In this document: piece by piece, positions 16,593 through 22,126 of the stretch
How the letters are laid out: every line of letters starts with the position of its first letter
Numbering within the stretch: the first letter of the stretch is position 1
DNA from: Polynucleobacter sp. MWH-Svant-W18
GTDB lineage: Bacteria > Pseudomonadota > Gammaproteobacteria > Burkholderiales > Burkholderiaceae
Direction: 5' to 3'
Assembly: GCF_018687495.1 (NCBI RefSeq)
Contig: NZ_CP061293.1
Span: 62,001 to 126,000, forward strand
Length of the DNA: 64,000 bases
The notes under the pieces: model-generated
Databases searched by the model: none
Seen by the model: the letters and a program-made list of their open reading frames with translations, nothing else
Told to the model about the DNA's origin: nothing
Translations under genes and position numbers: made by a program

Positions 16593-17117
16593 TTAAGCGG
16601 AAAGTTCGAGTTGCATGATTAAGGTGTTGACTAATTGATTGACACTAGGTTTGCCAGTTTCAATCACATGATCGGCGATTTCACGATAAAGTGGGTCGCG
16701 TATCGCATATAAATTTTCAAGAATTTTTTTGGCATCACCATTGCGTAAAAGAGGGCGACCTTCCCCGCCTTTAGTGCGATGCCACAGTTCGGCCGGATTG
16801 GCATGCAAATAAATTACGATGCCACGCTCTTTAAGTGCTTGTCGATTTTCAGGAAGCAAAATAGCGCCACCGCCAGTAGCCAAAACAATGTCATGTTCAG
16901 CGGTAATCTCACGAATGGCTTGAGCCTCTCGTTTACGAAAACCCTCCTCACCTTCCATTTCAAAAATGACAGGAATTTTGACACCACAACGCTCTTCGAT
17001 CACATGATCGGCGTCTAAAAATCGGCGCCCGAGTTTCTTTGCCAACACTTTACCTACGGTCGACTTCCCGGCGCCCATCAGGCCGATCAGAAAAATATTG
17101 TTTTTCGAAGAATTCAC
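16593..17117 (-). CDS. aroK: Shikimate kinase
   Basis: AroK phosphorylates shikimate to shikimate-3-phosphate. The 174-residue protein has the P-loop GLMGAGKST (residues 12-20) and the [11 protein letters not shown] segment with the shikimate-binding aspartate. The motif TGGGA (about 80-84) and the lid segment GGEGRPLL (about 116-123) are also present. It lies 12 bases after the secretin gene and before aroB; pilQ-aroK-aroB order is widely conserved in proteobacteria. Confidence 0.96.
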
Positions 17118-17129
17118 CCTTTGATTTTA

Positions 17130-18227
17130 TTAGGGTTTATCGAGGACGGTAGGCGTTAAGAAGACCAGCAGCTCAGTTTTATCTTGTAATTTAGATTTAT
17201 GGCGAAATAAATGCCCTATTAGAGGAATATCACCCAGAAGTGGGATTTTTACTTCATCTTCCCGTTCGGTGGTCTGAAAAATTCCGCCGATTATGGCTGT
17301 CCCGCCATTTTCAACGGTGACCTCAGAACTCAGGCTTTTGGTATCAATCGCGTACCCTTGCTCTGTTTTCATGCCAATAGTGTCTTTATTGATGCCAACT
17401 AGCATAGAGATTTTTCCATCTGGATGAATTTTGGGCAGAACTTCAAGGCGCAAATTGGCTTTTCTAAATTGAAGTTTGCTGCCATTTTGGGAGGTAGTTT
17501 GATAGGGCAGTTCAGTACCTTGTTCAATCGTGGCCTTGACCTGATCGCCAGTCATGATGCGTGGGTTCGAGAGAATTTTTCCTTGCCCATCCGATTCAAG
17601 AGCTGAGAGCTCCATTTGCAGAAGTCGACTGCCATTTCGGGAAACTAGGGTGGCTGCGATGGTAGCTGGATGAAAGCCGTTTAAACCTGCTCCAGCGAGA
17701 TCCATATTGCCAACAACTTTTTGGTTGGGGGTATTTTGAGCGTTTGCTTGATAACCCAGTTTGACTCCAAGTTCACGGGCAAAGCGTTTGTCCGCCTCCA
17801 CAATACGTGCCTCAATCAAAATTTGCCGCGGGCTATTGATGTGGTCGCCACCAAAAGGCAGCGCCGCATCCTCGCGCCGGTGTTTTTGAAATGCTTGAAT
17901 TTCTGCATGTGGACCAATCCAATAGATATCTCCATTGCGGACTAATCGCAGACCTCTGCTAGCAAGAATGGAGTGCAAAGCGGTTTGCCATGGCGTATTT
18001 ATTAGGTCAATCGTAATGCGCCCCTTGATGGATTCACTTAATAAAAAATTGCTGCCCCCTAATTTGGCAAGCGCTTGCAACAGTTCCACAAGCTCAATAT
18101 TGTTAAATTGCAAGCTGACAGGATCTTCGGGAGAGAAATTTCCAGAAGTATTGGCGCCGACCGGATTTACTGAAAATGTAAGAAATAGGAGGAGCCACGT
18201 AACGAATCTTTTAAAAACTTTAGGCAT
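17130..18227 (-). CDS. Short PilQ/HofQ-type outer-membrane secretin
   Basis: Secretins form the outer-membrane ring through which type IV pili or DNA pass. The 365-residue protein has a signal peptide (about 1-25). An N0/STN-like domain covers about 36-112 (LQFNNIELVELLQALAKLGG). The secretin domain runs from about residue 134 to the end, with GTELPYQT, the NGGTAIIGGIFQTTE block and the C-terminal VPLLGDIPLIGHLF-like motif (here IPLLGDIPLIGHLFRHKS). It lacks the AMIN repeats and second N-domain of full PilQ proteins, which are about twice this length, and resembles HofQ/ComE. The partner gene immediately upstream looks PilP-like. Confidence 0.85.
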   Translation of the reverse strand: MPKVFKRFVTWLLLFLTFSVNPVGANTSGNFSPEDPVSLQFNNIELVELLQALAKLGGSNFLLSESIKGRITIDLINTPWQTALHSILASRGLRLVRNGDIYWIGPHAEIQAFQKHRREDAALPFGGDHINSPRQILIEARIVEADKRFARELGVKLGYQANAQNTPNQKVVGNMDLAGAGLNGFHPATIAATLVSRNGSRLLQMELSALESDGQGKILSNPRIMTGDQVKATIEQGTELPYQTTSQNGSKLQFRKANLRLEVLPKIHPDGKISMLVGINKDTIGMKTEQGYAIDTKSLSSEVTVENGGTAIIGGIFQTTEREDEVKIPLLGDIPLIGHLFRHKSKLQDKTELLVFLTPTVLDKP

Positions 18228-18231
18228 GCAG

Positions 18232-18936
18232 TTACGGTCCAGATAAGTTCGGATTAGTGGATTTGAGAACGAGTGTTTTTCCTAGGGGATGGGTTAGGGT
18301 GACAAACTCTTTTTCGATTTGCGTTAAACGCCAGTCCCCTAAAACAAGAGCGCCTTTTTGAAACGCCCCATTCTTTTTGCCGGTATGAAAAAACGCTTGG
18401 TGAGACCCCCGAATTTGAGCCGTGCCTAAAAAGCGCCAATTTTTGAGTTCAGACTCATGGGGGGTGGGCTGAGGCTTGGGATTTCCTTTGAAAAGAGGCT
18501 TATTTTCTTTTAAAAAGTGAATGCTTACTTCTAATAAATCTATTTCCTCATATAGATTATCCTCGATATTTTGTAATTCTGTACGCAATAGACCTAATTC
18601 CTTTTGGAGCGCAGAAATTTGATTTTGCGATTCCTGAATGAGAGACTCTGAGCGGGATTCGATGGACTCAAAGGCAATAAATAGAGCGAGAGAAAGGCCA
18701 ATCAAACAAAGGCCAATCCCGATAAACGGTCCCAATTTTTGAACTTGAGGTCCAGCAGTAAGAGCGCTCAAAGCATCGAGGGGCTGACGCACTTTGGATG
18801 GATTTTTAGGCTGTTGATGGGCGGTTTTGGGCGCGGGTGTTTTACGGATCCCATGAGGATCAGGAATTGCTGGATCATCCCCAAGCTCACTCAAAATTTC
18901 ATCAAAGGATTGCGGAGATATGTGGCGAGATGGCAT
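18232..18936 (-). CDS. PilP/PilO-like inner-membrane protein of a reduced pilus locus
   Basis: The 234-residue protein has a proline-rich cytoplasmic N-terminus (1-67), one membrane segment (about 69-90) and a predicted coiled coil (about 93-145). After a linker comes a beta-rich C-terminal domain (about 165-228). That domain contains FLGTAQ, KGALVLGDWRLTQIEKEFVTL and a terminal LVLKS, the pattern of PilP and GspC domains that contact the secretin. TM plus coiled coil is the plan of PilN or PilO. It starts 4 bases before the secretin gene and is divergent from mrcA, exactly where pilMNOP sit in relatives. The PilP-like call is by pattern, not by alignment. Confidence 0.6.
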   Translation of the reverse strand: MPSRHISPQSFDEILSELGDDPAIPDPHGIRKTPAPKTAHQQPKNPSKVRQPLDALSALTAGPQVQKLGPFIGIGLCLIGLSLALFIAFESIESRSESLIQESQNQISALQKELGLLRTELQNIEDNLYEEIDLLEVSIHFLKENKPLFKGNPKPQPTPHESELKNWRFLGTAQIRGSHQAFFHTGKKNGAFQKGALVLGDWRLTQIEKEFVTLTHPLGKTLVLKSTNPNLSGP

Positions 18937-19075: not shown

Positions 19076-21409
19076 ATGGCCTTACCTCCAAATGACAAGC
19101 CAACGCCAAATCAGCGGCCAATTCGTCAGTTCAATAGACGTCCAGGTCAGCCTCGCTTTGATCCAGGTACGCCACGTAAATCTTCCAGTAGTCCGCTGAT
19201 CAAAGCAGTTTTAATTATTGGCGTAGTGATTGCCGTGATGGTGATGGTATTGGTGGGCTATGCATTCTTAGTGGCGAAGCCTAATTTGCCAAAAATTTCT
19301 GCTTTAACAGATTACAACCCTAAAACTCCTCTGCGTATTTATACGGCAGATAAGGTGCTCATTGGTGAGTTTGGCGAAGAGCGTCGCAGAGTCATTCCGC
19401 TTGCAGAGATACCCTTGAGTATGCGCAATGCTGTATTAGCAATTGAGGATGATCGTTTCTATTCTCATGGCGGAGTTGATTACGTTGGAATTTTGAGGGC
19501 CACGGTTACCAATTTGCGCGGGCACTTATCGCAGGGCGCCTCAACGATCACGATGCAGGTGGCTCGAAACTTTTTTTTAAGTAACGAGAAAACCTTTAGT
19601 CGAAAAATCTATGAAGTCTTATTGGCTTGGGAAATTGAGTCGCAGCTAACGAAAGACAAGATTCTAGAAATCTATATGAATCAGATCTTTTTGGGTCAGC
19701 GGGCTTATGGATTCTCAAGCGCAGCCCAAATCTATTTTGGCAAAGAGTTAAAAGACATCACGATTGCAGAGTCCGCAATGTTGGCAGGCTTGCCAAAAGC
19801 ACCGTCTGCCTACAACCCCGTTAGCAATTTCCGACGGGCCAAAATTCGTCAAGAATATATTTTGCAGCGTATGCGCGATCTTGGATATATCTCTCCTGAC
19901 GAGTATCAAAAGGCTATGACTGAAGAATTGCATATTCGTGGCCTGGGAAATGAGTTTGCTGTGCGCGCTGACTTCCCTGCAGAAATGGTGCGTCAGTTAT
20001 TGTTTGCGCAATATGGTGAAGCTATTTATTCCCAAGGTATTGATGTTTATACAACCATACTGAAGGCTGACCAAGATGCAGCCTACAAAGCAGTGCGCCG
20101 AGGAATTTTTGAGTATGACTTACGACATGCTTACCGTGGACCAGAGGGATTTATTGAGCTTCCTGAGGATCCAGTAAAACGTCAGCGCGCCATTGATGAA
20201 GCTTTACTGGCTTATCCGCAATTAGATGATTTGCAGTCTGGCGTTGTCTTAGATGTAAAGCCAAAAGAAATGCAGGTGATGATTGCCACGGGCGATACGA
20301 TCACCCTCAAAGGTGAAGGCATGAAATTGGCAGCTGCATCATTAACCGATAGCACTCAACCTAAGAAAAGGTTGCGTCCAGGTGCGGTTGTCAGGCTCTT
20401 ATTGGATGGTGGGGTTTGGAAGTTAGCCCAGTTACCTCAGGTGGAGGCCGCATTTGTTTCTATGAATGCAGATACTGGAGCGATCCTGTCCTTGGTTGGT
20501 GGCTTTGACTTCCGTCGCAATCAATTTAATCACGTCACTCAAGCCCTGCGTCAACCAGGCTCATCCTTCAAGCCATTTATTTATGCTGCCGCTATTGAAA
20601 AAGGCTTCACACCGAGCACTATGGTGAACGATGCTCCTCTATCGATTGGCAGTATGGAGACGGGTAGCCAAGCCTGGGAACCAAAGAACTACGATGGTAA
20701 ATACGATGGCATGATGCGTTTACGGAATGCTTTAGCAAAATCAAAGAACTTGGTTTCAGTTCGCATCATTCGAGCAATTGGCCCTTCATACGCACAGGAA
20801 TACATTCAACGTTTTGGTTTTGAGCCAGAGAAACATCCGCCGTATTTAACAATGGCGCTTGGTGCAGGTTCAGTTACTCCATTGCAAATGGCCTCAGCCT
20901 ACAGCGTGTTTGCTAATGGTGGCTACCGCGTCGATCCTTTCTTGATTAACAAGATGATCGATTCAAAAGGCGTTGTGATTTTTGAAGCCAAGCCAGCCAC
21001 TGTGGGTGATGGCGCACCGCGAGTGTTAGATGCCCGCACAGCCTTTGTGATGGACAGCATGCTGCAAGAAGTTACTAAGACTGGTACCGCCGCATCTGCT
21101 CGTGCAAAGCTTGGGCGTGCTGATATTGCGGGTAAAACTGGTACGACTAATGAATCACACGACGCGTGGTTTGCGGGCTATAACCCTAAAGTGGTCGCTA
21201 TTGCATGGATTGGTTTTGATAAACCAGCAAGCCTAGGTGATCGTGAAACAGGCGGTGGCCTAGCTCTGCCAATGTGGATTTCTTATATGTCTGTTGCTTT
21301 GAAAGAGATTCCACAAGAAACTCGTGCGGTGCCAGAGGGTGTCACGCAGGTTGACGGCGATTGGTTTATTCCAGAGTTTGCTCGCGGCGGTACACGCGAC
21401 CTACAGTAG
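19076..21409 (+). CDS. mrcA: Penicillin-binding protein 1A (bifunctional)
   Basis: PBP1a polymerises and cross-links peptidoglycan. The 777-residue protein has a proline-rich cytoplasmic tail and one membrane anchor (about 41-66). The GT51 glycosyltransferase domain carries the catalytic Glu124 in EDDRFYSHGG. The transpeptidase domain has the SxxK motif Ser496-S-F-Lys499, an SKN motif (AKSKNLVS) and KTGTT at 687-691. In related genomes mrcA is divergent from pilMNOPQ, as it is here from the PilP-like gene. No ribosome binding site is visible before the ATG. Confidence 0.96.
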   Translation: MALPPNDKPTPNQRPIRQFNRRPGQPRFDPGTPRKSSSSPLIKAVLIIGVVIAVMVMVLVGYAFLVAKPNLPKISALTDYNPKTPLRIYTADKVLIGEFGEERRRVIPLAEIPLSMRNAVLAIEDDRFYSHGGVDYVGILRATVTNLRGHLSQGASTITMQVARNFFLSNEKTFSRKIYEVLLAWEIESQLTKDKILEIYMNQIFLGQRAYGFSSAAQIYFGKELKDITIAESAMLAGLPKAPSAYNPVSNFRRAKIRQEYILQRMRDLGYISPDEYQKAMTEELHIRGLGNEFAVRADFPAEMVRQLLFAQYGEAIYSQGIDVYTTILKADQDAAYKAVRRGIFEYDLRHAYRGPEGFIELPEDPVKRQRAIDEALLAYPQLDDLQSGVVLDVKPKEMQVMIATGDTITLKGEGMKLAAASLTDSTQPKKRLRPGAVVRLLLDGGVWKLAQLPQVEAAFVSMNADTGAILSLVGGFDFRRNQFNHVTQALRQPGSSFKPFIYAAAIEKGFTPSTMVNDAPLSIGSMETGSQAWEPKNYDGKYDGMMRLRNALAKSKNLVSVRIIRAIGPSYAQEYIQRFGFEPEKHPPYLTMALGAGSVTPLQMASAYSVFANGGYRVDPFLINKMIDSKGVVIFEAKPATVGDGAPRVLDARTAFVMDSMLQEVTKTGTAASARAKLGRADIAGKTGTTNESHDAWFAGYNPKVVAIAWIGFDKPASLGDRETGGGLALPMWISYMSVALKEIPQETRAVPEGVTQVDGDWFIPEFARGGTRDLQ

Positions 21410-21421
21410 TTCGTTGCCAAC

Positions 21422-22126
21422 ATGGCTAGGCAAGCACGCACTGTTATCCCTGGTCAAGTCATGCATGTGATGGTCCGTGGCAATAATCGGGAAACCCTTT
21501 TCTTTACTCCAGAAGATCGACGTACCTATCTCGAATGGTTGCGAGAAGCAGCCAGACAGTTTGGCTGTGCAGTACATGCATTTGCATTAATGCCCAATCA
21601 TGTTCATCTCTTGTTGACACCGCAAAACGAAGACTCGCTTGCCAAAACTATGCAGTCTCTAGGTCGACGCTATGCTCAATACTTCAATCAGCAGCATCAA
21701 CGTTCGGGAACTATTTGGGAAGGACGCTACCGCTCCTCTCTGATCGATCCAGATTATTTTTTGCGCTGCATGCGTTATATAGAGCTCAATCCTGTCAGGG
21801 CAGGCTATGAATCTAGCCCTCAAGATTCGACATGGACCAGTTTTGTAAGCCATATCGGGGGAAATTCTGAGCCCTGGTTGGTAGATCACCAGCATTTTTG
21901 GAAATTAGGTAATACACCCTTTGAGAGGCAAATGGCGTGGGCGCATTTTGTAAAGGAGGGCGCTCCCCACTGGGAAGATCGTCAAATCACTGAATCCCTA
22001 CTGCGCTCCAAGCCTTGGGTGAGCGATATTTACGCCAAAAGACTCTTTAAAGATAATCCGCAGATAGCTCAGATCCGACATCGTGGGCGCCCTAGAAAGA
22101 TAAGCTCTTTAAATTCAGCAACTTAG
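21422..22126 (+). CDS. REP-associated tyrosine transposase (RAYT, Y1_Tnp family)
   Basis: RAYT proteins are single-strand endonucleases of the HUH class (IS200/IS605-like), usually immobile single copies linked to spread of REP palindromes. The 234-residue protein has the His-x-His pair His60-V-His62 in MPNHVHLLL and candidate catalytic tyrosines Tyr84/Tyr87 in GRRYAQYFNQQH. It also has the conserved WEGRYRSSLI and YIELNPVRAG blocks. It begins 12 bases after mrcA with no clear ribosome binding site. It is followed by an inverted repeat and an AT-rich palindromic stretch that may be its recognition element. Confidence 0.88.
   Translation: MARQARTVIPGQVMHVMVRGNNRETLFFTPEDRRTYLEWLREAARQFGCAVHAFALMPNHVHLLLTPQNEDSLAKTMQSLGRRYAQYFNQQHQRSGTIWEGRYRSSLIDPDYFLRCMRYIELNPVRAGYESSPQDSTWTSFVSHIGGNSEPWLVDHQHFWKLGNTPFERQMAWAHFVKEGAPHWEDRQITESLLRSKPWVSDIYAKRLFKDNPQIAQIRHRGRPRKISSLNSAT

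Follow-up and report, generated by a model that had tools for sequence, protein, structure and literature searches.

A two-gene secretin locus in Polynucleobacter, probably the outer-membrane part of a reduced pilus derived from the type IVa kind

The window analysed here is a stretch of 64,000 nucleotides of the genome of Polynucleobacter sp. MWH-Svant-W18 (contig NZ_CP061293.1, positions 62,001 to 126,000). It includes mrcA, encoding penicillin-binding protein 1A (19076..21409, plus strand; Pfam Transgly/Transpeptidase), and the shikimate kinase gene aroK (16593..17117, minus strand; Pfam SKI and spacing), which serve as context genes. Between them lie exactly two genes, both intact and both on the minus strand, divergent from mrcA: ORF2 (18232..18936), coding for a 234-aa single-pass membrane protein, and a gene for a 365-aa secretin of the PilQ family (17130..18227). 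An earlier note on this DNA had described the same two genes and the absence of pilM, pilN and pilO from the locus; both open reading frames were found where it had placed them, and there is no room for the three missing genes. The gap between ORF2 and the secretin gene is 4 nt, and 12 nt separate the end of the latter from aroK on the same strand, a spacing by which ORF2, the secretin gene and aroK look like one operon. On its other side, mrcA is followed by a gene for a 234-aa REP-associated/Y1-type transposase-like protein (window 21422-22126); since a similar copy is present near the same locus in a deep-branching member of the genus (G005, L161:1011-1709), it may be a long-resident gene.

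The secretin scored 306.9 bits against the NCBIfam PilQ model TIGR02515, above the cut-off of 284.35, whereas its GspD score lay far below the cut-off of that model. It matches the Pfam families Secretin and STN, and no AMIN domain was detected in it by Pfam search, in agreement with the earlier description of a 365-residue secretin without AMIN repeats. Its N-terminal part is an N0 domain (residues 36-106; 17910..18122, minus strand), identified by the Pfam families STN and GspD_N0 and by the match of residues 36-115 to the structure of meningococcal PilQ N0/N1 (4ar0, E=2.6e-11). N0 is joined, without an N1 domain, to the barrel/gate (residues 133-362; 17142..17831, minus strand; Pfam Secretin). 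The alignment with relatives, including those of Burkholderia type (a label used here for the layout of the locus), leaves a gap of ~75 residues exactly at the position of N1. In the structural model a single alpha/beta domain (36-106), with pLDDT near 90, is connected through a helix to the barrel, which is modelled with low confidence. The secretins of a sister genus with small genomes (g21; L101, L109) show the same gap, yet the full PilMNOP set is present there; the loss of N1 is therefore not unique to Polynucleobacter, and to judge from these sequences it would have happened more than once, or before that of the other genes.

ORF2 is harder to place by sequence. It gave no significant match to Pfam or NCBIfam, PF04351 (the Pfam family of PilP) included, the matches seen in Pfam being rejected as coiled-coil noise, and a sequence search of the PDB returned nothing credible (best E 0.62). 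The AlphaFold model, built on 43 sequences, starts with a tail of low confidence that includes a single short helix (8-17), followed by a long helix (69-144) and a beta domain, in which seven strands (168-226) are predicted with pLDDT mostly >90. Accordingly to this layout, the protein can be divided into a cytosolic tail (residues 1-32; 18841..18936), the portion of the long helix predicted to cross the membrane (a hydrophobic stretch at residues about 69-93; 18658..18732), a periplasmic coiled coil (residues about 94-146, pLDDT >90 for most; 18499..18657) and a beta domain of homology-region (HR) type (residues 160-228; 18253..18459), all on the minus strand.

The beta domain was compared with known structures and profiles. 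In a Foldseek search of the PDB, ranks 1-5 were all PilP and GspC (E 4e-3 to 3e-2, probability 1.00). VIA-align 2, run on the same candidates, aligned it with PilP (2y4y, Z 9.1, 68 residues aligned, rmsd 2.4; 2ivw, Z 7.8; meningococcal PilP in 4av2, chain 4av2_M, Z 7.0), with the HR of GspC (3oss, Z 8.4) and PulC (6hcg, Z 6.6) and with GspB (4wfw, Z 6.1), so that 9 of its rows 1-10 were PilP, GspC/PulC or GspB; matches of the long helix, to spliceosome, FERM and other entries, were set aside as generic coiled coils. Moreover, hhalign paired ORF2 with an alignment of PilP from related genera, the HR domains matching over their full length (pairwise E 6.5e-5; probability 64%, a support that falls to 9% when the deep lineages are left out of the ORF2 profile). 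From predicted structure and profile match, the C-terminal domain of ORF2 is thus predicted to have the PilP/GspC HR fold, which bears out the PilP/GspC-like beta domain that the earlier note had called. ORF2 does not have the make-up of a PilP lipoprotein, as the membrane helix at about 69-93 stands in place of an N-terminal lipobox. The same note had also assigned the protein a PilN/PilO plan. As a layout, namely a membrane helix followed by a coiled coil, this holds; as homology it does not, as hhalign against PilN and PilO alignments gave only short, chance-like matches and the model, made of helix and HR domain only, is devoid of the ferredoxin-like periplasmic domain of PilN/PilO. A PilN/PilO ancestry is still plausible.

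The two proteins complement each other in what they have kept. It has been reported that the HR of GspC binds the N0 domain of GspD (PMC3169554), that PilP binds N0, and not N1, of PilQ (PMC3441751), and that GspB, laid out as membrane anchor, linker and HR, likewise binds the N0 of GspD (PMC9239104). Since N0 is the domain bound by all three, the locus retains both halves of one known interface, HR and N0, and little else; N0 of the secretin is the expected docking site of the HR of ORF2.

A scan for the locus in one genome per species (84,980 species) returned 67 loci, all of them from Polynucleobacter or from unnamed Burkholderiaceae/betaproteobacterial MAGs. The order mrcA / ORF2 / secretin / aroK was intact in each of the 61 that were not cut by a contig end, and because of this the arrangement is not due to chance. 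Across these complete loci, identity to the proteins of the window was about 42-61% for ORF2 and 77-86% for the secretin. In the deep-branching lineages of Polynucleobacter (G005, G027, G032) the layout is the same, with secretins 46-48% identical; the identity of ORF2 was only 20-22% in the two that were measured (G032 and G027), and the tails of all three retain a core like [SA][FY]D, that of G032 departing most from the genus motif. When 300 genomes of the order were searched with the ORF2 profile, full-length matches were found solely within the genus.

Conservation, dN and dS were calculated from the 43-sequence alignment, dropping pairs with undefined dS. The tail (consensus MPxRxISxxSFDxILSxLGDDPAIPDPHGIRK) has a mean amino acid conservation of 0.93, with median dN of 0.06 and dS of 1.17, the adjacent linker a conservation of 0.34 with dN of 1.29, and the HR domain 0.67 with dN of 0.39. 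The synonymous sites of the tail are thus near saturation while the protein is nearly invariant, and since these sites vary, the tail is held by selection on the protein, which is not the pattern of a remnant. The view of the earlier note, that both genes look intact and may be functional and not decaying, is in line with this strong purifying selection.

To understand where ORF2 came from, the same place was read in sister genera. Loci bearing PilP occur in genera g3, g5, g19, g21, g22 and g24, three of which (g19, g21 and g22) were seen to have the complete pilM-N-O-P-Q. In loci of Burkholderia type (L137, L141, L147, L149), pilM and pilN are followed by the gene for a fusion protein of about 300 aa, in which a PilO-type part precedes the PilP-type HR domain (PilO-PilP), and then by pilQ. 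In g18, whose genomes measure 1.9-2.8 Mb, the order is pilM, a fusion of a PilN motif with PilP, and pilQ; the fusion (L145:6359-6898, L146:6214-6810), of 179-198 aa, combines a single membrane helix with the PilN motif GGFNLLPYR and ends in a PilP-type domain, PilM being kept, and PilO and the periplasmic domain of PilN being gone. In g2, g11 and g23, represented by one genome each, mrcA adjoins aroK with nothing between. The whole pilMNOPQ block is missing between the two genes in L132, L138 and L148, and also in L134, where about 2 kb hold no ORF of at least 70 aa on that strand. ORF2 is one of several separate contractions at mrcA-aroK, and its derivation from a fusion of PilN/PilO with PilP is plausible. 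A different origin, which would be compatible with the function proposed below, has in our estimate somewhat less than an even chance: ORF2 could be a diverged PilP, or an imported gene of GspC/GspB type, that gained a membrane anchor with no PilN/PilO-PilP fusion being involved. The homology detected in ORF2 is confined to the HR domain, outside the genus its HR region was matched by the profile only in G246 and in G430, where the locus, judged by its genes, is T2SS-like and encodes a protein similar to GspC, and GspB shares the layout of anchor, linker and HR (PMC9239104); on the other hand, ORF2 occupies the ancestral position of pilP in the operon, at which sister lineages carry real PilP fusions of both the PilO and the PilN-motif kind.

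The companion genes were sought by profile search of the complete genome (G000, one contig of 1,770,456 bp), and selected stretches were read. No PilN was found in it by profile search, and neither were PilO (PF04350) and PilP (PF04351), two profiles that also miss E. coli and are weak when taken alone. The sole match to the PilM profile, a 355-aa frame matched at positions 172-236 only and shared by most Polynucleobacter genomes, was rejected as MreB-like by its length and range. The absence of PilMNO, which also rests on the lack of room in the locus, on the single secretin and on the single ATPase, leaves no intact pilMNO elsewhere in the genome that could stand in for the missing genes. 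True PilM-like frames of 538-580 aa, which also contained PilN in those that were tested for it, were found in six relatives; they sit among further ATPases and secretins and were assigned to an accessory MSHA-like pilus and not to the mrcA-aroK locus. A few Polynucleobacter (G002, G023, G036) have such a second, MSHA-like cluster, in which the PilM and PilN profiles fall in one frame of 564-580 aa (for example G002:C1:1220001-1221557) and which carries its own ATPases and secretin.

The rest of a pilus machine is encoded in the genome. The pilus and competence genes whose presence the earlier note had left to a genome search, pilB, pilC, pilD, pilins, comEA and comEC, were all found, and pilT was not: the genome has just one T2SSE ATPase, PilB, and therefore neither PilT nor PilU, and just one secretin. 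PilB lies in a cluster pilB-pilC-pilD-coaE-zapD (L100). It is 359 aa long and matches the PilB model from position 175 of 564 only, and that of ComGA from position 3 of 267; it is thus devoid of the N-terminal domain (ND1), which in PilB/GspE is the part bound by proteins of PilM/GspL type (PMC8389850), as expected if PilM is gone. The platform protein PilC has HofC, and not ComGB, as its best match. PilD (166 aa, L100:5895-6395) is matched solely by the catalytic peptidase family PF01478, which suggests that the usual N-terminal (methylase) part of the prepilin peptidase may have been lost. A major pilin of the type IV family PF00114 (class IV pilin) is encoded at L122:7225-7722, and a candidate minor-pilin cluster of four small genes lies between ribBA and ribD. 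Its first gene gave weak matches to ComGE and related families, and its fourth to GspH and N_methyl, whereas the two in the middle were called mainly by position and N-terminal helix; the cluster is found at the same place in G016 and G091, and in a diverged form in G032. PilB, PilC, PilD, a type IV pilin and a secretin, the set by which a type IVa pilus was recognised, are therefore all encoded, together with the DNA-import proteins ComEC (826 aa), ComEA (154 aa) and DprA.

Taken together, these data make it likely, in our judgement, that a reduced pilus derived from the type IVa kind, most probably serving DNA uptake, has its outer-membrane half in ORF2 and the secretin. The earlier note had proposed a minimal channel for DNA uptake or secretion, and the genome context given by PilB, PilC, PilD, the pilins, ComEC, ComEA and DprA supports such a function as a prediction; DNA uptake is the best-supported role that gene content predicts. 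In this scheme, in which every physical contact is deduced from domain make-up, predicted fold and conservation, the secretin would be the outer-membrane pore passed by a PilA-type pilus, and ORF2, a proposed platform-secretin tether, would sit in the inner membrane, its coiled coil spanning part of the periplasm, setting the distance and probably oligomerising the protein. The HR domain would dock on N0 of the secretin, as PilP, GspC and GspB do, and hold the pore above the inner-membrane motor, while the near-invariant cytosolic tail would probably contact the motor directly (PilB and/or PilC), replacing the PilM-PilN link. The pilus would be assembled by PilB, PilC and PilD, and DNA presumably carried inwards by ComEA and ComEC. 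Searches of the open-access literature found no report of transformation, pili or competence in Polynucleobacter.

Natural losses of these genes bear on this role. G017, a single contig of 1.55 Mb, is probably an obligate endosymbiont, as its size and broken genes indicate. Both ORF2 and the secretin gene are broken into pieces lying in different frames there, pilB is interrupted by stops, no long frame is left of pilC, and ComEC and pilins were not found; this joint loss links the locus to pilins and DNA import. G017 is the only relative in which both genes of the pair are disrupted. In G023 the secretin gene and dprA are each frameshifted, ORF2 being open. By contrast, ComEC looks intact in G023 despite the broken secretin, and the complete genome of the deep-branching G032 gave no match to ComEC and has kept secretin, ORF2, PilB and pilins (L126-L128), so that the pilus can persist there without DNA import. 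Both cases count against DNA uptake, as does the missing PilT, even if a T4aP of Haemophilus without PilT takes up DNA (PMC6668835). The same facts could be read as a reduced pilus for adhesion, or as a protein secretion machine with a short, T2SS-like pseudopilus, with ComEC, ComEA and DprA kept for other reasons: pilus genes persist in G032, PilT is missing as in T2SS, the tether resembles GspC/GspB in having a membrane anchor and no PilP lipoprotein signal, and DprA is found in most control genomes. Nevertheless, we regard this reading as unlikely, as the secretin is of PilQ type and far from GspD by score, the major pilin belongs to PF00114, the gene order is that of T4aP (pilBCD-coaE-zapD; mrcA/pilQ/aroK), and 11 of 13 genomes encode ComEC, one of the two exceptions having lost the whole system. 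That the locus is a decaying, functionless remnant of pilMNOPQ, as the repeated gene loss at this place in the family, complete in some genera, and the broken genes of G017 and G023 might suggest, is very improbable and already largely refuted by the 61 intact loci, the strong purifying selection and the complete companion machinery.

The reduced type IVa-derived pilus proposed here can be compared with known systems. With the type IVa PilMNOPQ systems of Neisseria and Pseudomonas, Polynucleobacter shares the position of the locus, a PilQ-type secretin, a PilP-type HR, PilB, PilC and PilD, and the pilins; unlike them, it is devoid of PilM, PilN, PilO, the PilP lipoprotein and PilT, its secretin is without AMIN and N1, its PilB without the N-terminal domain, and its peptidase reduced to PF01478. 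The Com pilus of monoderms (ComG) consists of one major and four minor pilins, a peptidase, a platform and an extension ATPase, without MNOP (PMC10191384). Polynucleobacter has the same core set without MNOP, and the alignment of its ATPase with ComGA covers almost the full length; however, it adds an outer-membrane secretin and a tether, and by position and family its set is a derivative of the T4aP of Burkholderiaceae, not falling in the ComG clade by any test made here. The set also comes close to the ancestral filament machine that has been proposed, with its five parts of pilins, peptidase, ATPase, platform and secretin (PMC10191384). With GspC and GspB of type II secretion, whose HR binds the secretin N0 (PMC3169554, PMC9239104), ORF2 shares the inner-membrane anchor, the linker and the HR, and differs from them by the absence of a PDZ or peptidoglycan-binding extension, by its conserved cytosolic tail and by its PilQ-type partner. 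The PilO-PilP and PilN-motif-PilP fusions of other Burkholderiaceae have in common with it the locus and a PilP-type domain on a membrane anchor, but in those lineages PilM is kept, as is PilN in the PilO-PilP case, and the secretin has N1. Finally, the Cts transformation system of Campylobacter jejuni similarly is a secretin-based DNA uptake by a partly known set resembling T2SS/T4P (PMC10046745), whereas it has other components (CtsP, CtsX, Cj0683).

PilMNOP is essential for pilus assembly in N. meningitidis (PMC6668835), and for this reason the lack of PilMNO in a descendant of T4aP marks a genuine departure; why T4aP need PilMNOP and Com pili do not has been raised as an open question in reviews (PMC10191384, PMC6668835). 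It could be, and we put this forward tentatively, that the type IVa pilus of a diderm was reduced secondarily almost to the proposed ancestral filament machine, with one new protein replacing PilM-N-O-P, its HR holding the secretin N0 and its tail coupling to the PilB/PilC motor. Polynucleobacter appears to offer a natural diderm pilus in which PilMNOP is reduced to one tether and PilB, PilD and the secretin are trimmed too, and thus a natural test of what a pilus minimally needs, the contacts predicted to be truly required being those of HR with N0 and of the tail with the motor. These predictions can be addressed in bacteria that are culturable and not pathogenic, and the system would give a widespread freshwater genus with small genomes a route for gene uptake.
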